Virus record (IMG/VR): IMGVR_UViG_3300022074_000090
Span: 1-45,821 of that record
Strand: one strand, 5' to 3'
Length of the DNA: 45,821 nucleotides
DNA from: a virus
Below are positions 9,734-34,510 of this stretch, piece after piece. A program made the translations under genes and the position numbers. Within the stretch, counting starts at the first letter, position 1. Each line of letters opens with the position of its first letter. The notes under the pieces were generated by a model. The model saw only the letters and a list, made by a program, of their open reading frames with translations, searched no databases and had not been told where the DNA came from.

Positions 9734-10705
9734 ATGGCAGCTAATTTCACCTCCGGCTGGTTCGGTAACAACGAACACGCATGGCACGGACTCGGCGTTG
9801 TCGAGCCTGGCACCCGTCCCGCACGTCAAGCCTTTGAGCTTGCAAACGCACTCTTCCAAGTTGAGAAGAGGGAGCTTCTTTACCCAGTCGCACTTGGAAT
9901 TGACCCTGAAACAGGAGTCACTTCATCATCAACTCAAGCCTCAGGTGTCTACGGAGTTGTCCGTACAGACACCCAAGAGTTCTTCGGTGCTGTCTCGGAC
10001 CAATATGAATTGGTCCAGAACGATTCGCTCCTTCGGATGGCAGAGTTCATCAGAGAAGAGGCGGACATGGACAGCGTCGTTGTACTTGGCGGCGGTGCCA
10101 AAGTCGCCTTTACCGCCACACTCCGTGGTGCGTCGGAGGACATCGTCCCTGGCGACACAATGAAGCGTCGTCTCGTCGGCTTCCTTGGACACGACGGTAA
10201 GACAAGTGTCGGTGCAAAATTTACTGACATACGTGTCGTTTGCCAAAACACTCTAGCCGCAATGATGCGTGACAGTGGTGCGAAACAAACTCTCACTCAC
10301 AAGCAAGGCGTGAATGGCCAGTTCGATTCTCTAATCAAGAGCATCGACGTCGCCCGTCAATCCTTCAGTGATGACATGGACTTTCTGCGTACAACTGCTG
10401 GCGTTGAACTTGGCAGCTTTGCCGAGTTCGTCGAGCAGGTCTACGACGTCAAAGACATGATGAAGTTCCGTAAGTATCGCAGGCTTAACACTGCATACCG
10501 CTTCGGCATGGGTTCCAACTACGCCACTGGCTCAGTTTGGAATGCCATCAACGCTGTGACTCAGGTAGAGACTTCTCCTAGAGATCGTCAACTGACTCGC
10601 AATCAGCGTATGTCTAAGTTCAACAGTGCCAACTTTGGTACTGGCATGAACTACGCCAAAAAAGCAATTGAAGTTGCCAAAGAACTCATGCCTGCAATGG
10701 TGTGA
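9734..10705 (+). CDS. DUF932 / phage-plasmid-like protein
   Basis: A 323-residue protein. The N-terminus (GNNEHAWHGLGVV) and the later YELVQNDSLLRMAEF and RVVCQNTLAAMM segments match the DUF932 / TIGR03299-like family found in phages and plasmids. Its function is unknown, though it is often encoded near replication genes. The length is close to the family norm. It is monocistronic between two UAAC hairpins, and codon use looks well adapted, suggesting high expression. There is no Shine-Dalgarno sequence before the start. Confidence 0.75.
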   Translation: MAANFTSGWFGNNEHAWHGLGVVEPGTRPARQAFELANALFQVEKRELLYPVALGIDPETGVTSSSTQASGVYGVVRTDTQEFFGAVSDQYELVQNDSLLRMAEFIREEADMDSVVVLGGGAKVAFTATLRGASEDIVPGDTMKRRLVGFLGHDGKTSVGAKFTDIRVVCQNTLAAMMRDSGAKQTLTHKQGVNGQFDSLIKSIDVARQSFSDDMDFLRTTAGVELGSFAEFVEQVYDVKDMMKFRKYRRLNTAYRFGMGSNYATGSVWNAINAVTQVETSPRDRQLTRNQRMSKFNSANFGTGMNYAKKAIEVAKELMPAMV

Positions 10706-13069: not shown

Positions 13070-13319
13070 TTTACAAACCGTAGATGTATTTAGTTACGAT
13101 CTAATGGATGCCGTGTGCTTGTGCCATGCAGCACTTGCGCAAGACAGTCCTCAGACCGAGCGTCATTACATCAATCAAATCCTTGGCTTGCTCTTTGCCT
13201 ATCTCACTAAAGAGCAGCGTGCGGAAGTAGACGCATATCTTGCAGATAAGAAATATCTGCCTCCAGTCAAGATCCAAATGGATCAGAACACCGTCCGTAA
13301 AAACATTATCCTCCCATGA
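13062..13319 (+). CDS. Hypothetical protein, 85 aa
   Basis: Overlaps both neighbours (8 bases with the upstream gene, ATGA with the downstream one). A helical protein with an N-terminal DVFSYDLMDAVCLCHAAL segment containing two Cys, a central TERHYINQILGLLFAYLTKE helix and a basic C-terminus. Not recognised. The position before the thioredoxin-like gene suggests a role in the same pathway, but nothing in the sequence proves it. Confidence 0.6.
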   Translation: MNDLQTVDVFSYDLMDAVCLCHAALAQDSPQTERHYINQILGLLFAYLTKEQRAEVDAYLADKKYLPPVKIQMDQNTVRKNIILP

Positions 13320-13666
13320 GTAACACTGTACTTTTCATCTTCACTCAAGAGAATTGTCCTCCTTGCTATCGCTTGAAGGACTTCATCAAAACTCTGCCCT
13401 CTGAGCAGCAGTCTGCCATTCAACTGGTGCCCTTCAAAACCACTACTGGTGAGAAGACAGCACTTGCTGAAGAGCTGAACATTGAAGTCACTCCCACCAT
13501 GGTTGTGGCTGCTGAAGAGCTGGTCTGTGATATCGACACGGATGAGTATGGCTTCCGTTACTGCGAACTCAAGGATGATTCCATTGAGACCATCGTTGGC
13601 GGACAAAACATCACCACTGCTTTGCCTGGCGTGATTCTGAACTACATTCTTTCGGAGGATCTGTGA
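13316..13666 (+). CDS. Thioredoxin/glutaredoxin-like protein
   Basis: A 116-residue protein with the redox motif CPPC after a first beta strand (VLFIFTQENCPPCYRLKDFI, about residues 4-23) and the conserved cis-proline stretch IEVTPTMVV (about 59-67), both diagnostic of the thioredoxin fold. It is encoded 1.2 kb upstream of nrdA, whose C-terminal CxxC needs such a reductant. An inserted loop containing DIDTDEYGFRYCELKD is longer than in classical thioredoxin. A GGAGG sits at its 3' end for the following gene. Confidence 0.8.
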   Translation: MSNTVLFIFTQENCPPCYRLKDFIKTLPSEQQSAIQLVPFKTTTGEKTALAEELNIEVTPTMVVAAEELVCDIDTDEYGFRYCELKDDSIETIVGGQNITTALPGVILNYILSEDL

Positions 13667-13833: not shown

Positions 13834-13949
13834 TGACAGACGAATTTTTTGATTGGATAGACCAATGCCCTGTGCAGTGGTTTTTAATTGATGCCGATGG
13901 CGAACAAAGAACTTATCAATTTCTTAGTCCAGATGAAGAAGAAGAATGA
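13833..13949 (+). CDS. CPVQW micro-protein, 38 aa
   Basis: Starts at ATG 13833 inside a TGATG overlap and ends in an ATGA overlap with the next gene. The protein reads MTDEFFDWIDQCPVQWFLID, then a Tyr-containing strand and an acidic tail (PDEEEE). It is clearly related to the 43-residue product at 27741, which shares the W-[IL]-D-x-C-P-V-Q-W core, the later TY-x-F and the acidic end. Function unknown. One copy is in the nucleotide operon and one is between the polymerase halves. Confidence 0.6.
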   Translation: MTDEFFDWIDQCPVQWFLIDADGEQRTYQFLSPDEEEE

Positions 13950-14176
13950 ACAAAAAGACTTACGACTTCCTCGGTGAGATCGCTGAATGTATGAAAGAAC
14001 TCGGGTTCACCCATGAGGTTGAACTCGAAGTAGTCATAGGCGGCACCCAGATTTATGAGATCGAAGGTGCTGGCACTAAGTGGGCTCCCAAGAAAGGCAC
14101 CCGTAAATACAACGACGATGCATTCATCGTTATACGCAAACCAAAACCAGTTATATCCTCTCAATGTGATGTCTAA
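13946..14176 (+). CDS. Hypothetical protein, 76 aa
   Basis: A small mixed alpha/beta protein: a helix (KTYDFLGEIAECMKELGF), then strands (EVELEVVIGGTQIYEIEGAG) and a basic C-terminal strand (DDAFIVIRKPKP). No named family. Overlaps both neighbours by 4-8 bases. Confidence 0.6.
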   Translation: MNKKTYDFLGEIAECMKELGFTHEVELEVVIGGTQIYEIEGAGTKWAPKKGTRKYNDDAFIVIRKPKPVISSQCDV

Positions 14177-14357
14177 AACACGAGAACAGATGATTGATCG
14201 TCTCATTGAAGAGACTTATGAAGGCATGGATTACAAAGCCTTATGGTATTTCTTTGAATATCACCAGCAGCGTGAATTCGCTGAATGGAGTAACGAAGAG
14301 ATCCTAACTGAATACAACGAATATTTTACTGATGAGCAAGAAAGCGAATGTAATTGA
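14169..14357 (+). CDS. Hypothetical acidic helical protein, 62 aa
   Basis: The start ATG 14169 overlaps the upstream stop. The product is very acidic with a MIDRLIEETYEGMDYKALWY helix and an EEILTEYNEYFTDEQES end. It overlaps the IF-1 gene by 26 bases. The frame of an upstream ATG (14055) is mostly antisense-like sequence, so the shorter start is preferred. Not recognised. Confidence 0.55.
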   Translation: MSKTREQMIDRLIEETYEGMDYKALWYFFEYHQQREFAEWSNEEILTEYNEYFTDEQESECN

Positions 14358-14559
14358 GGCCAAAGGCGTCATATTTAAAGAATCAGGCAACGGATATTTC
14401 AACGTAGAGCTTGATGAACCTGCTGGGCATAAGTGCCTGTGCCGTGCATCAGGAAGACTTATTACCCGCAAGATTCAACTCCTTGTAGGTGACAAAGTTA
14501 CCGTCGAACTTTCCCCATTCGACCTCACAAAAGGTAGAATAACTTTACGAGCAAAATGA
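14332..14559 (+). CDS. infA: Translation initiation factor IF-1 homologue
   Basis: A 75-residue protein, the normal IF-1 length of about 72. VIEAKGVIFKESGNGYFNVEL matches the N-terminal strands, and VGDKVTVELSPFDLTKGRIT is nearly identical to the strongly conserved C-terminal block of bacterial IF-1. The middle (CLCRASGRLITRKIQLL) keeps the SGK/R position but diverges from the usual MRKHYIRI. IF-1 sits in the ribosomal A site during initiation and works with IF-2 and IF-3. It is encoded inside the operon between micro-proteins and MazG, overlapping both. A phage copy could alter start selection on phage mRNAs or compensate for host decline; both are inference. Confidence 0.88.
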   Translation: MSKKANVIEAKGVIFKESGNGYFNVELDEPAGHKCLCRASGRLITRKIQLLVGDKVTVELSPFDLTKGRITLRAK

Positions 14560-14900
14560 CAGCAGATCCTCAACAACAAGCCATAGAATTTCGTCACTGT
14601 TACGAAGTTCCGAATACTCCAGACAATACTGAAATGCAGTTGCGTCTTATTCAAGAAGAGTTTAAAGAGTTCGTCGCAGAAGACGAACCAGAAAACAAAC
14701 TCAAAGAGCTTGCGGACCTTGTATATGTGTGCTTCCAATATGCCGAGAATCTGGAGTGGGACTTAGTTACCGCTCTGCATCGTGTGCATAAAAGCAACAT
14801 GTCGAAGCTCGGTCCAGACCGTAAGCCTATCCGCCGTGAAGACGGAAAGATTCTCAAAGGTCCTAACTATCAACCACCCAACCTGAGTGACTTAGTATGA
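14556..14900 (+). CDS. MazG-like nucleotide pyrophosphohydrolase
   Basis: A 114-residue protein with the MazG-type metal-binding pattern: EEFKEF in one helix (about residues 33-38) and ELADLVYVC in the next (about 51-59), separated by an acidic loop, as in all-alpha NTP pyrophosphatases. The later HKSNMSKLGPDRKP segment fits the family's substrate loop. It would hydrolyse nucleoside triphosphates, either cleaning the dNTP pool or altering alarmone levels. It overlaps IF-1 and nrdA by ATGA junctions. Confidence 0.8.
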   Translation: MTADPQQQAIEFRHCYEVPNTPDNTEMQLRLIQEEFKEFVAEDEPENKLKELADLVYVCFQYAENLEWDLVTALHRVHKSNMSKLGPDRKPIRREDGKILKGPNYQPPNLSDLV

Positions 14901-16294
14901 AAAGCAAAATTGCACGTACAGGACGAGTTCAAAACTGGCTCGACAATCCTGACCAACGACTGCCTGCATCTTGCACGGTGTTCGTTGTAGAAGACACGAT
15001 CGAAGGCCCTAACGGTATTGAGGCGTCTTGGGACTTTGTGTCTCACGCTCTCCGCTATGGAGCAGGCTGTGCCGTGCACCTGACTAACCTTCGTCCTAAT
15101 GGCAGCAGCAATGACAAGGGTCTCGTAGCAAGCGGACCTGTCAGCTTTGCCAAGGTTTACTCAGTGCTGAATGAAGTTCTGCGCAGAGGTGGTGTTTGGA
15201 AAAACGGAGCTGTGGTCTGTCACCTCGACATCAGCCACCCTGACATCCTTGAGTTTGTCACCGCACGTCGTGAAGAACTCCCTTGGGTCAAGCGTTGTGT
15301 GAACGTCAGCGAGTTGCTCTGGAACAAAACTACCGACGAAGTCAAAGAAGCTATCTGTGCAGGTATTGCACGTGGTGACATCTGGCTTACCAAGATTCGG
15401 TATGACCACCGTGGCTTCCGTATCTACGGCAACGTGTGCCTGGAGGTCTTTCTCAAGTCCCGTGGCACCTGTCTGCTTGAGCACATCAACCTGGGTGCTT
15501 GCAAGATCAAAGACATCCCTCACGCATTCGTTGAAGGAATGACTGAGCTGTGTGAACTTCACAGCAAGACTGGCGTAGGTGAATCACGTGAGTATCTGTC
15601 TCCTGAAGTGGACAGGCAGGTCGGTTTAGGTGTCCTTGGACTAGCGAATCTACTGGCTCTGGAGAAAGTTACCTACGCACAATTGGCTGAGGCACTGGAT
15701 TTTTATCACGGTGCAGAACATGACGTCATGGTGACTCCTGGAGCCCGTAAAATAGTTGAAGCTCTCGATCACGGACTCAAGCTCGCTACGGAAATTGCAC
15801 GTGAATCCAACATGGATCGTGCGTTTGCAATTGCTCCTACAGCTAGCTGTTCGTATCGCTATGAAGACCGTGCTGGCTACACAACTACACCCGAATTGGC
15901 ACCCCCAATCGGACGTGTTGTTGACCGAGACAGTTCTACCTTTGGCGTTCAACAGTATGACTACGGCAACGTAGAGACTGCTGAAGAAGTCGGTTGGGAT
16001 GTGTACAAGCGAGTGGTGGATGGCATCTGTCAGATGTATCACAACACAGGCTTGTTCCATGGATACAGTTTCAACTCTTGGAGCGACATCGTTACTTATG
16101 ACGTTGCCTTTGTAGAGGACTGGCTCCGTAGCCCGCAGACCAGCTTGTATTACTCCCTGCAAGTTATGCAGAACACGCAAGCTAAGGATGACGCCATGGC
16201 TGCTCTTGATGGCGACTTCAGTGCGCTCTTTAACTTCGACGATCTGTCGGATGAAACAGAAGAGGCAGCTTTTTGCCCTTCCTGTGCCGAATAA
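14897..16294 (+). CDS. nrdA: Class I ribonucleotide reductase alpha subunit, compact form
   Basis: At 465 residues it is much shorter than the usual 750 or so, with no ATP-cone. Active-site features remain: Cys26 in LPASC, the N-x-C-x-E radical motif as NVCLEV (N179, C181, E183), Cys192 in TCLLEHINL, a Tyr-Tyr pair in SLYYSLQ for radical transfer, and a C-terminal CPSC for reduction by thioredoxin. It reduces ribonucleotides to deoxyribonucleotides with the adjacent NrdB. Compact NrdA proteins are known from cyanophages and were once mistaken for class II; the CxxC, YY and neighbouring nrdB support class I. Confidence 0.88.
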   Translation: MKSKIARTGRVQNWLDNPDQRLPASCTVFVVEDTIEGPNGIEASWDFVSHALRYGAGCAVHLTNLRPNGSSNDKGLVASGPVSFAKVYSVLNEVLRRGGVWKNGAVVCHLDISHPDILEFVTARREELPWVKRCVNVSELLWNKTTDEVKEAICAGIARGDIWLTKIRYDHRGFRIYGNVCLEVFLKSRGTCLLEHINLGACKIKDIPHAFVEGMTELCELHSKTGVGESREYLSPEVDRQVGLGVLGLANLLALEKVTYAQLAEALDFYHGAEHDVMVTPGARKIVEALDHGLKLATEIARESNMDRAFAIAPTASCSYRYEDRAGYTTTPELAPPIGRVVDRDSSTFGVQQYDYGNVETAEEVGWDVYKRVVDGICQMYHNTGLFHGYSFNSWSDIVTYDVAFVEDWLRSPQTSLYYSLQVMQNTQAKDDAMAALDGDFSALFNFDDLSDETEEAAFCPSCAE

Positions 16295-16309: not shown

Positions 16310-17044
16310 ATGACAAAACCAACATCACCTTACGCACAACTGCATCAACGCAAGCGGACCTGGACTCCGGTCGAGGTTACCGCAGGAGACCTGCTGGAAG
16401 GCGGTGAAGAGGTCATTCAACGTGCGCTTGCACTCCGCTGTCTTGAGATTCCTGTCGGTGACTTCATTACTGAAGCCATGCGTGGGGATCTGCCGGACGA
16501 CCGTGCATGTATCAGGCTCCTTCAATCAAACGTAATCGACGAAGAAAAACATGACATTGCACTTAATTATGCAGCACGAGCCCACAAGGTTCCAACAGCC
16601 TTTGAGCGAGAAGCTGGGAAGATTTGCCAGACGTGGCTGGAACTTGATCGGCACCCTGTCCTCAAGGCTGTGGTCCTTGAAAGATCCGTCTTCTTCGTGT
16701 TGCTGCCAATTTTCAGGTTCCTTGGAGACACCGGGCTGCGCACGACAAGTGCCGACATCTCACGGGATGAACAGACCCACGTAGCGGCTAACTCGCTTGT
16801 TTGCTCTGAGATCGGATTGACAAGTGACAAAACTATCAACTCTCTCCGCCGAGCAACGATTGACTGGGTTACCCAATCTCTCGATGCCGAGCACGAGAAC
16901 AAGTACCTTTCCAAGAACTTCTGGCTCAAGTGTTCAGACAACCTGTACACCCGTGGAAAGGCAGAAGGCTTAGGTGATACCCGTGCTTCACGGATGCCTG
17001 CCTTCTTTGAATCAAACAACGTTAATTTACCTCAATACGCATAA
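16310..17044 (+). CDS. nrdB: Ribonucleotide reductase beta subunit lacking the radical tyrosine
   Basis: At 244 residues it is shorter than the usual 320-375. Candidate metal ligands are E46, E78 and H81 (EEKH), E124 (VLER), and E154 and H157 (DEQTH), with the same spacing as in E. coli NrdB. The position of the radical tyrosine (four residues after the first ligand His) is Leu85. This suggests a tyrosine-independent cofactor such as the dimanganese type of class Id, which is inference. It starts 15 bases after nrdA. Confidence 0.85.
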   Translation: MTKPTSPYAQLHQRKRTWTPVEVTAGDLLEGGEEVIQRALALRCLEIPVGDFITEAMRGDLPDDRACIRLLQSNVIDEEKHDIALNYAARAHKVPTAFEREAGKICQTWLELDRHPVLKAVVLERSVFFVLLPIFRFLGDTGLRTTSADISRDEQTHVAANSLVCSEIGLTSDKTINSLRRATIDWVTQSLDAEHENKYLSKNFWLKCSDNLYTRGKAEGLGDTRASRMPAFFESNNVNLPQYA

Positions 17045-17344: not shown

Positions 17345-17441
17345 TTATATAAATGAGTTAGTTGACCTAACACGAGATACAGCTGAAAAACTTACAGTAA
17401 AACAATTGAGAGTACTAGTAGCAAGACATGCACAAAGCTGA
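17313..17441 (+). CDS. Small basic helical protein, 42 aa
   Basis: The ATG at 17313 lies in another frame within the end of the previous gene, and its stop overlaps the thyX start. The sequence is AKSKTKRKADYINELVDLTR, followed by a Leu/Val/Lys helix. It may be a coupling ORF or a small nucleic-acid-binding peptide. Supported only by frame openness and tight coupling. Confidence 0.45.
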   Translation: MAKSKTKRKADYINELVDLTRDTAEKLTVKQLRVLVARHAQS

Positions 17442-18054
17442 ACTAATTTGGATAACACCTGATGCTGAAAAACTTGTGGGCAAGATTGCAAGAGTATCTA
17501 ACCCCAAAAACGAAAACAACCCTGACGTCACAAAGCTCCTTGGATACCTCATCAAACATAAACACTGGTCACCTTTTGAGATGGTCAGCCTATGCGTCGA
17601 GATTGAGACTACAAGGGCTATTAGTCCGCAAATCTTACGGCATCGCTCCTTTAGCTTCCAGGAGTTTTCACAAAGGTACGCTGAGGCCACGTCAGTAGAT
17701 GTACCCCAACTCCGTCGTCAAGACACAAAGAATCGGCAAAATTCTATTGACGATGTAGAGCCTCACATTGAAGAGTGGCTGCAGGAAAAAATCGAAGCAC
17801 ACAACCGTAGTGCTCTTGATATCTACAACGGCATGCTTGCTTATGGTATTGCCAAAGAATGTGCACGCAACGTGTTACCTTTATCTACGGCGACCCGTTT
17901 ATATATGTCGGGCACGCTACGTTCTTGGCTCCACTACTGTGACCTCCGCTGTGCCAATGGCACTCAGGCAGAACACAAGCAGATTGCTGATTCCGTAAAA
18001 GATATCCTTCTCGCTCAGGTTCCTACAATTGCCCACGCAATGTGGCCTGAATGA
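17428..18054 (+). CDS. thyX: FAD-dependent thymidylate synthase ThyX
   Basis: A 208-residue protein with the ThyX signature RHR-x7-S (R71, H72, R73 ... S81, in ILRHRSFSFQEFSQRY), which binds dUMP and FAD. Flanking helices carry the usual EMVSLCVEIETTRAI segment. It makes dTMP from dUMP with methylene-tetrahydrofolate and NADPH. The length is typical. It closes the thioredoxin-NrdAB pathway operon; no classical ThyA is seen. Confidence 0.93.
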   Translation: MHKAELIWITPDAEKLVGKIARVSNPKNENNPDVTKLLGYLIKHKHWSPFEMVSLCVEIETTRAISPQILRHRSFSFQEFSQRYAEATSVDVPQLRRQDTKNRQNSIDDVEPHIEEWLQEKIEAHNRSALDIYNGMLAYGIAKECARNVLPLSTATRLYMSGTLRSWLHYCDLRCANGTQAEHKQIADSVKDILLAQVPTIAHAMWPE

Positions 18055-18747: not shown

Positions 18748-18830
18748 GAACCCTAGCTGTAAGTACCGCAAGAGCGGTCCTTACTGGTGGGAGTCTCCGA
18801 TCTACAGAACCTCTCGTATTCGTATGTCCA

Positions 18831-18853
18831 GGGGCCTATAAGGCTCCTTTTTT
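18831..18853 (+). terminator. Intrinsic terminator
   Basis: A 7-bp stem (GGGGCCT/AGGCTCC with one wobble) has a 3-base loop and is followed by TTTTTT. It ends the SSB-like gene. The 18748-18830 stretch also holds a weak ACCGC/GCGGT hairpin (about 18767). Confidence 0.75.
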
Positions 18854-29804: not shown

Positions 29805-30884
29805 ATGACTACAATGATCTCGGGTGCCCAGTCCCGTACAAACTGGGAATCTTTCTGTGAGTGGGTTACATCCACTAACAACCGGCTGTATGTCGGATGG
29901 TTTGGCATCCTCATGATTCCAACTCTCCTCGCAGCTGCAATCTGTTTTATTACTGCTTTTGTAGCAGCACCCCCGGTAGATATCGATGGCATTAGAGAAC
30001 CAGTCTCAGGATCCCTCCTCTACGGAAACAACATCATCTCAGGTGCCGTTGTTCCATCCAGCAATGCAATCGGCTTACACTTTTACCCCGTGTGGGAAGC
30101 CGCAACGCTCGACGAATGGCTCTACAACGGTGGACCATATCAACTCGTTGTCTTTCACTTCCTTATCGGTATCTTCTCTTACATGGGACGAGAATGGGAA
30201 CTTAGCTACCGGCTAGGGATGAGGCCTTGGATCTGTGTTGCGTACTCTGCTCCTGTTGCCGCAGCGTCTGCTGTGTTCCTTGTTTACCCGTTTGGTCAAG
30301 GTTCTTTCAGTGACGGCATGCCTCTTGGCATTTCCGGCACCTTCAATTACATGTTGGTCTTCCAGGCGGAGCACAACATTCTTATGCATCCTTTCCATAT
30401 GCTTGGTGTTGCCGGTGTATTTGGTGGGGCTTTGTTCTCAGCTATGCACGGCTCTCTGGTTACATCTTCCTTGGTCCGTGAGACGACTGAGCAGGAGAGC
30501 CAGAGCTACGGCTATAAGTTTGGGCAGGAGGAGGAGACGTACAACATCGTCGCTGCCCACGGTTACTTTGGGCGTCTTATCTTTCAGTACGCCTCGTTTA
30601 ATAACAGCCGTTCTCTTCACTTCTTCCTTGCTGCTTGGCCCGTCGTGGGCATTTGGTTTGCTGCCCTTGGTGTTAGCACTATGGCATTCAACCTGAATGG
30701 CTTTAACTACAACCAGTCGATCCTCGATCACTCAAGTCATGTAGTTAATACCTGGGCTGACATCTTGAACAGAGCTAACCTTGGCTTTGAAGTGATGCAT
30801 GAACGTAACGCCCACAACTTCCCATTGGATCTAGCTTCTGCTAGCTCTATTGAAGTGGCCTTGACTGCGCCAAGTATTGGCTGA
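29805..30884 (+). CDS. psbA: Photosystem II D1 protein, high-light (E130) form
   Basis: Full-length 359 residues, no insertion or intron. The Mn-cluster ligands are present: D170, E189, H332, E333, D342 and, after processing, A344; the C-terminal extension [15 protein letters not shown] would be cleaved by the host protease. Residue 130 is Glu (YMGREWEL), as in the high-light D1:2 form. D1 turns over fastest in PSII, and phage copies sustain photosynthesis during infection. It has its own upstream region (29714-29804) with a TATACC -10-like box, separate from the riboswitch transcript. An antisense endonuclease gene overlaps its last 38 bases. Confidence 0.97.
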
Positions 30885-33669: not shown

Positions 33670-34446
33670 CTATTCTAATAGCTGTAACTGTTCATACTTA
33701 TCGTCAAGTAATATTTGACCGTAACTTGCGGTCATTCCTTTAGCAGAATGCCCAAGAATGCTTGCTGCAATTGAGTATTCTATCCGTGCTCTACGCATCC
33801 TAGTTGTTATGTGATGACGCAAGCCATGAGCAGAATGACCACACCGATGCTTCATGTATCTACTGAAGTTATCACCAGCTTTTGGGTTAGTACTAAAAGG
33901 GAAATTCTCGATAAATCTCTCGTAGTTCCGGTGTATTGGCACCTGCCTGCGACTGGGTTTGTTCTTAATTCCCCTGATCCCATTGGGGTATATCTTGAAG
34001 TGTGGGAAGTCGTGGTCTAAAAAAATATCTTCAGGCTGCAGATTACAAAGTTCTGAAACACGTAAGCCGTGATACCAGAGTCCCATGAACAGTGGGTGAT
34101 CTGCGAGGCCACATTCTTCGTAGTGGCTGAAGGGTAAAAACGGATAATCCTTCTCTCCCTTCTCCAGACCTTCTAATGATCCAACCCAAGGATTGGTTGT
34201 GACAGTGCGAGTTTTAATACCCCACTTCCAGATCGCTTGACAGTATCCAAGTTGCGTTCGGACGTAGCCACTTTTGTAGCCCCTGTCAAGTAGTTCGATG
34301 CGACGGTCAATGGCAAAGTCTTCGTCAACTGATTCCGCATCTTTGGTTTCAAATCCTCGGATTGCGTATTGCCAACCTTTGATGGTTGCGTTAGCTGGAC
34401 GTCTGAAAGAAGCAGATCGCTTCAGAAGCTGTTGAACCGTGGTCAT
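33670..34446 (-). CDS. int: Tyrosine recombinase (integrase)
   Basis: About 258 residues from ATG 34446 (earlier ATG 34461 or TTG 34467 are possible). Catalytic pattern of the family: R in GLRVSELCNL, H-x-x-R in SAHGLRHHITTRMRR, H in LGHSAKGMTASYG and the nucleophile Tyr in the same segment. An N-terminal SAM-like domain precedes it. Its presence indicates integration ability, as reported for some cyanophage genomes. The candidate attachment site is the tRNA-like repeat immediately upstream (34511-34620). Confidence 0.88.
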   Translation of the reverse strand: MTTVQQLLKRSASFRRPANATIKGWQYAIRGFETKDAESVDEDFAIDRRIELLDRGYKSGYVRTQLGYCQAIWKWGIKTRTVTTNPWVGSLEGLEKGEKDYPFLPFSHYEECGLADHPLFMGLWYHGLRVSELCNLQPEDIFLDHDFPHFKIYPNGIRGIKNKPSRRQVPIHRNYERFIENFPFSTNPKAGDNFSRYMKHRCGHSAHGLRHHITTRMRRARIEYSIAASILGHSAKGMTASYGQILLDDKYEQLQLLE

Positions 34447-34510
34447 TTGAAATATAAGCATCGCCAATACGGTTATACCGTTGACACAAGTTCCCTGTGG
34501 GGTTTACCTT

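Follow-up and report, generated by a model that had tools for sequence, protein, structure and literature searches.

A gene for translation initiation factor IF-1 sits among the nucleotide-synthesis genes of a mid-sized cyanophage, and its product is probably a working IF-1 of the picocyanobacterial type that supplements or displaces the host factor on the 30S subunit. This is the best explanation on the basis of homology, predicted fold, C-terminal arginines, host-type ancestry, fixed synteny and purifying selection; against it stand the replaced basic positions of a central loop, a missing host-type tail and the phage S-EIV1, which manages without the gene. Phage-encoded translation factors have so far been reported mostly from huge phages, and phage IF-1 as such is already known; what is novel here is a host-matched, apparently core IF-1 in a cyanophage of moderate size. 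The window, i.e. the whole 45.8-kb virus record analysed, covers part of the genome of a cyanophage with psbA; besides this gene it encodes a split DNA polymerase, a primase-helicase, a class Ia ribonucleotide reductase, ThyX, an integrase, an endolysin and tail fibres. The psbA match (Table 1) bears out the call of a cyanophage in the initial annotation, which had been made from the sequence alone.

Table 1. Positions in the window of the IF-1 gene, segments of its product, neighbouring cluster genes and the psbA marker
Feature	Position	Strand	Evidence or remark
Thioredoxin-like protein, upstream	13316..13666	+	PF13098 2.3e-6, phrog_22 4.7e-6; next to IF-1 in relatives too
Small conserved phage protein (phrog_475), upstream	13946..14176	+	2.8e-16
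Small phrog_1352-type protein, 3' end overlapping the IF-1 start	14169..14357	+	phrog_1352 1.8e-4 on ORF 14055-14357; in-frame ATG at 14169
IF-1 (infA-like) gene, 75 aa	14332..14559	+	Family profiles, PDB IF-1 chains, predicted OB fold
Codons 29-30 (EP), 2-aa insert common to Cyanobiaceae IF-1, absent from other aligned bacterial IF-1s	14416..14421	+	Alignment; host sequences
Codons 40-54 (SGRLITRKIQLLVGD), expected A-site-facing segment, fixed in the phage clade, unlike host	14449..14493	+	50 distinct phage proteins (one truncated); host sequences
Codons 69-73 (RITLR), R69 and R73 the presumed equivalents of the IF1 rRNA-contact arginines	14536..14550	+	Invariant alignment columns
MazG-like nucleotide pyrophosphohydrolase, ATG overlapping the IF-1 stop (ATGA)	14556..14900	+	phrog_671 5.4e-33
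Ribonucleotide reductase large subunit (nrdA)	14897..16294	+	PF02867 6e-22, phrog_367 2e-40; overlaps mazG
Ribonucleotide reductase class Ia beta subunit (nrdB)	16310..17044	+	phrog_6799 1.7e-101
ThyX thymidylate synthase	17428..18054	+	PF02511 2e-46
Terminator-like hairpin and T run, downstream of the cluster	18830..18848	+	Pattern scan; by itself not evidence of function
psbA (photosystem II D1), cyanophage marker	29805..30884	+	phrog_182 4.7e-195

The open reading frame runs from an ATG to a TGA stop and encodes MSKKANVIEAKGVIFKESGNGYFNVELDEPAGHKCLCRASGRLITRKIQLLVGDKVTVELSPFDLTKGRITLRAK. The product matched the Pfam family PF01176 over its whole length (1.1e-15; 57.4 bits against a cut-off of 30.2) and the NCBIfam infA equivalog TIGR00008 (1.4e-18; 66.7 bits, cut-off 61.15). 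Against IF-1 chains of known structure in the PDB, E-values reached 1.4e-15. The family HMM search that the initial annotation had suggested thus gave scores above the curated cut-offs, in agreement with the whole-length IF-1 assignment made there. The same cut-offs were passed by all six phage copies and both host copies that were scored; on the equivalog model the host proteins reached 63.7-64.1 bits, so that by this measure the phage product is as good an IF-1 as the working host factor. In PHROGs it is placed in phrog_30201, annotated 'unknown function'. The reading frame and start are kept in about 50 distinct viral homologues. One copy (locus L048, 2875-3103) has a frame break past residue 28 and yields two matches in different frames, reflecting either an assembly error or a decaying gene. 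The N-terminal domain of RsgA was considered and rejected: PF16745 reached 29.1 bits compared with 57.4 for IF-1, true bacterial IF-1s also cross-match it weakly, and the circularly permuted, RsgA-type GTPase domain is absent from the 75-residue frame. A chance reading frame or another OB protein is ruled out by the equivalog match, the fold and the synteny.

The AlphaFold model, built on an alignment of 36 relatives, is a five-stranded OB fold with no second domain (pLDDT 86). All of the best 13 Foldseek matches were bacterial IF-1, 9FCO included, and the model superposed on 30S-bound IF1 (1HR0 chain W) with a TM score of 0.87 and an rmsd of 1.3; the structure prediction that the initial annotation had proposed thus returned the expected fold. 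The C-terminal block GD[KR]VTVELSPYDLxRGRIT is kept whole in the phage IF-1s, and R69 and R73 (numbering of the window protein) are invariant in the 49 complete phage proteins; in IF1, Arg64 and Arg69 have been named as 30S rRNA contacts (PMC4611024). The near-consensus C-terminal block and the diverging centre noticed at the outset are both real. As for the ribosome-contact residues, on whose presence the IF-1 proposal had been made to depend, the C-terminal arginines are invariant, but two basic loop positions are replaced.

These replacements lie in a segment with the consensus SG[RK]L[IV]TRKI[QH]LLVGD in the 50 distinct phage proteins (one truncated). About half of its positions differ from the host loop, including both basic positions thought to face the decoding site. 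At the sites of E. coli R41 and R46 (numbered with the initiator Met), every complete phage copy has Ile or Val and Gln or His, respectively, and the host has Thr and Lys; at those of E. coli N43 and Y44, the phages have Arg and Lys and the host Phe and Arg. Both of the former sites hold Arg or Lys in many IF-1s; however, the basic loop residues are not strictly defining for the family, because Arg is missing from the first of these sites in the sole IF-1 of the host as well. Together with the loop, the loss of the Arg/Gly tail and the presence of an N-terminal extension are fixed, phage-only traits. Judging from IF1-30S structures, the loop would face A1492/A1493. The part of the phage protein expected to anchor it on the 30S has thus been kept, and the part expected to lie at the decoding site has been changed and then frozen.

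IF-1 acts together with IF3 on initiation fidelity (PMC4611024), and a changed loop could therefore shift start choice, which makes it testable whether the choice of start sites by host ribosomes is retuned by marine phages. The same loop also bears on the suggestion that a modified IF-1 blocks or slows host initiation, occupying the A site without supporting start-codon checking and thereby shutting off or reshaping host translation. Such an inhibitor would account for a loop fixed in 50 distinct phage proteins in a form unlike that of the host at about half of its positions, both basic ones among them, and for the retained C-terminal arginines that would hold the protein on the 30S. Nevertheless, the phage depends on the same ribosomes, the gene stands among synthesis enzymes with no recognisable takeover cluster, and conservation outside the loop is at equivalog level, so that this reading appears unlikely.

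IF-1 and cold-shock OB folds are able to melt RNA, and the phage protein might alternatively act in RNA chaperoning or transcription antitermination and not in initiation. A small OB fold, an altered loop that weakens the case for normal A-site contacts, and a cluster rich in terminator-like hairpins (that at 18830-18848 is the top of 15 sites listed by the pattern scan, compared with 6.1 expected) would all suit such a role. It is nonetheless very doubtful, because the rRNA-contact arginines and the C-terminal block are conserved and a general chaperone has no need of them.

As the initial annotation had stated, the gene lies in a nucleotide-metabolism operon: IF-1, mazG and nrdA overlap one another and are followed by nrdB and thyX. 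Given this chain of overlaps, IF-1 is likely to be expressed together with the nucleotide-synthesis genes. A working IF-1 would then be made from the same cluster as MazG, ribonucleotide reductase and ThyX, presumably while the genome is being replicated; it would fold as an OB barrel, bind the A site of the host 30S and supplement, or perhaps replace, the single IF-1 of the host. In this way, it could sustain and perhaps retune initiation on phage mRNAs, with the altered loop possibly affecting start-site preference; a bias of ribosomes toward phage mRNAs, which had been proposed from the sequence, is possible. Shine-Dalgarno motifs precede 11-20% of phage genes compared with a background of 7-12% in a comparison confined to phages, the window being close to background and its relatives modestly above; these figures are context and speak neither for nor against a preference of the factor for SD-less mRNAs. 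Elsewhere in the window, a DUF932 protein (9734-10705, +, 6e-20) has counterparts of about 55% identity in each of the four large relatives.

The survey of related phage contigs suggested by the initial annotation recovered 53 viral loci through IF-1 matches, about 50 of them from the lineage of the window. A separate retrieval by nrdB gave 57 loci, of which 12 are cut off within 1.65 kb. In the 45 with enough DNA the place of the gene is fixed, upstream of mazG-nrdA-nrdB: all 45 have IF-1 at a distance of 1.8-2.0 kb from nrdB (1907 bp in L271), a count that includes near-duplicates and hence does not represent 45 independent lineages. TerL-positive contigs without IF-1 were rejected as true absences, being fragments that also lack a complete nrdB. 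IF-1 thus appears from its synteny to be a core gene of this cyanophage lineage. A bacterial or mis-binned origin of the contig, with the gene simply the infA of the host, is next to impossible: some IF-1 matches in the phage collection do look like bacterial contamination, but the gene is surrounded by phage genes for replication, endolysin and tail fibres, whose order is the same on dozens of viral contigs, and the host gene differs in sequence and in neighbours. Synteny already refutes this reading and rejects contamination as the source of the gene. As examples of such matches, the 'Acinetobacter phage' records CAKLQH020000005 and CAKLQF020000005 hold infA; the former has truA and leuB nearby and is apparently a bacterial chromosome in the phage collection, and matches labelled Listeria, Enterococcus and Staphylococcus phage may be bacterial DNA as well.

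When the window was compared with four large relatives, identity was 82-91% for IF-1, 73-77% for NrdB and 84-89% for PsbA, which ranks IF-1 with the best conserved proteins. The mean pN was 0.12 against a mean pS of 0.76 over 351 IF-1 pairs, and dN/dS was about 0.07 on unsaturated pairs, a rough figure only because synonymous sites are largely saturated. These comparisons point to strong purifying selection on IF-1. About 230 bases of a crowded operon are thus spent on a gene that is apparently core, host-matched and better conserved than ribonucleotide reductase. A plain gene-dosage copy, i.e. an ordinary host-like IF-1 that tops up supply as host transcripts decay, as psbA does for D1, would be consistent with conservation of the same degree as phage psbA and with exclusive clustering with host-family IF-1. 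However, identity to the host is only 58-61% and the loop is fixed in another form, and pure supply needs neither; we regard this explanation as quite unlikely.

The host-type ancestry of the phage protein is seen both in shared features and in the tree. Exactly one PF01176 match was found in 198 of 200 Cyanobiaceae genomes, at about 61 bits among the matches listed. In most other cyanobacteria a single ordinary IF-1 scores near 97 bits, and this usual type of infA is missing from the Cyanobiaceae genomes. In the two Cyanobiaceae genomes read (L371 and L372) the order is secY-adk-rpmJ with infA absent between, compared with secY-adk-infA in an ordinary cyanobacterium (L369). The Cyanobiaceae IF-1 gene lies outside the ribosomal-protein operon and adjoins a thioredoxin-reductase-like gene (named by eye from its sequence). 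Picocyanobacteria are thus shown to run on an unusual IF-1, and this divergent form may be a replacement. Throughout the family the host protein hardly varies; its sequence runs to [TS]RGRITYRERN, followed by an Arg/Gly-rich or basic tail.

The phage protein resembles the Cyanobiaceae IF-1 over its whole length, in the OB fold and the C-terminal arginines, and in the EP insert and the ExxGNG and EPxGHxCLCRA motifs, the CLCRA portion included. It differs in having ITRKIQ in place of the TKFRIK loop, in the MSKKAN extension and in the absence of the Arg/Gly-rich tail. Lacking the basic tail and the TKFRIK loop, it represents a sister type and not Cyanobiaceae IF-1 proper. In the phylogeny against host cyanobacteria, which had been among the checks proposed at the outset, phage and Cyanobiaceae IF-1 formed one clade (support 100/99), with the phages alone at 99/96. 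The central divergence noticed initially is therefore real but not purely viral, as divergence and EP insert are partly those of the host's IF-1; since the phage protein is host-type, part of it is inherited.

The sampled hosts are not nested inside the phages, because phage monophyly is supported at 99/96, and the same support argues against a host gene derived from within the sampled phage diversity. Host monophyly had a support of 65/0, so that transfer may have gone in either direction. A clade of host, phage and ordinary cyanobacterial IF-1 was not rejected (AU p 0.167), and deeper placement is uncertain in a tree of 75 columns. It seems improbable that the Cyanobiaceae IF-1 came from an ancestral cyanophage and that the phages have since kept a specialised form; if true, the most abundant phototrophs of the ocean would have had a translation factor that is universal and essential replaced by a viral version.

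The IF-1-bearing lineage is marine and represented mainly by metagenomic sequences, with genome sizes of about 80 kb. When the window was compared with phage records by Megablast, zero matches were obtained; its relatives reach 106 kb. One contig of 82,299 bp (G303) carries the same gene at both ends, which suggests circular permutation and a genome size of about 82 kb. The psbA gene represents a moved gene, being found downstream of the polymerase gene in the window but ahead of the IF-1 operon in the four relatives. An integrase (33670-34467, -, phrog_1 3.7e-21) is also present in this psbA-carrying window phage and in G304 and G311, while G303 and G295 had no match in the same comparison. 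An environmental genome group, G241, which bears psbA/hli, has been called a new cyanophage group (PMC5332604).

The nearest isolate found by terminase large subunit (TerL) is the Synechococcus phage S-EIV1 (KJ410740, 79 kb), with an identity of 56% (tested for the relative G304, as the window contig stops short of the head genes). It is similar to the lineage in genome size and picocyanobacterial host, but is only distantly related and differs in gene content: IF-1 and NrdB, both present in the window lineage, were not detected there. The T7-like cyanopodoviruses Syn5, S-CBP3 and S-RIP2 resemble the window phage in DNA polymerase (about 46%) and nrdB (about 57%) but gave no IF-1 match in tblastn. 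No cultivated cyanophage with IF-1 was found by tblastn among the 50,697 phage records of INPHARED, consistent with the initial view that IF-1 is not a standard cyanophage gene, and no relevant report of cyanophages with IF-1 was found in the open-access literature.

IF-1 genes in huge phages have been published (PMC7162821), gut Jug phages carry a 'translation initiation factor 1A' (PMC12363816), and the phage collection also contained IF-1 in Lak phages, Sinorhizobium phage Phosso and Bacteroides DAC phages. Like the window phage, all of these are tailed phages with an IF-1 homologue; however, they are about 160-600 kb in size compared with about 80 kb here, and their sampled IF-1s form separate long branches outside the cyanophage clade, in contrast to the host-matched core gene described here. 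Viral ribosomal proteins (bS21, bL12 and others) are thought to modify host ribosomes, and the main text of that report has IF1 only as a host target of the T7 kinase and not as a virus gene (PMC6375957). The window phage has no broad viral translation kit, because zero tRNA genes were found in the window and only three single ones (Leu, Met and Asp; L215 19550-19635, L216 30-104 and L220 12881-12954) in the four large relatives. Finally, viral contigs of 22-48 kb (L051-L053 and L054) carry different IF-1 genes, and that of L051 groups with Pelagibacteraceae IF-1 (98/81, long branches); judging from this grouping, host-type IF-1 may occur in other phages too.
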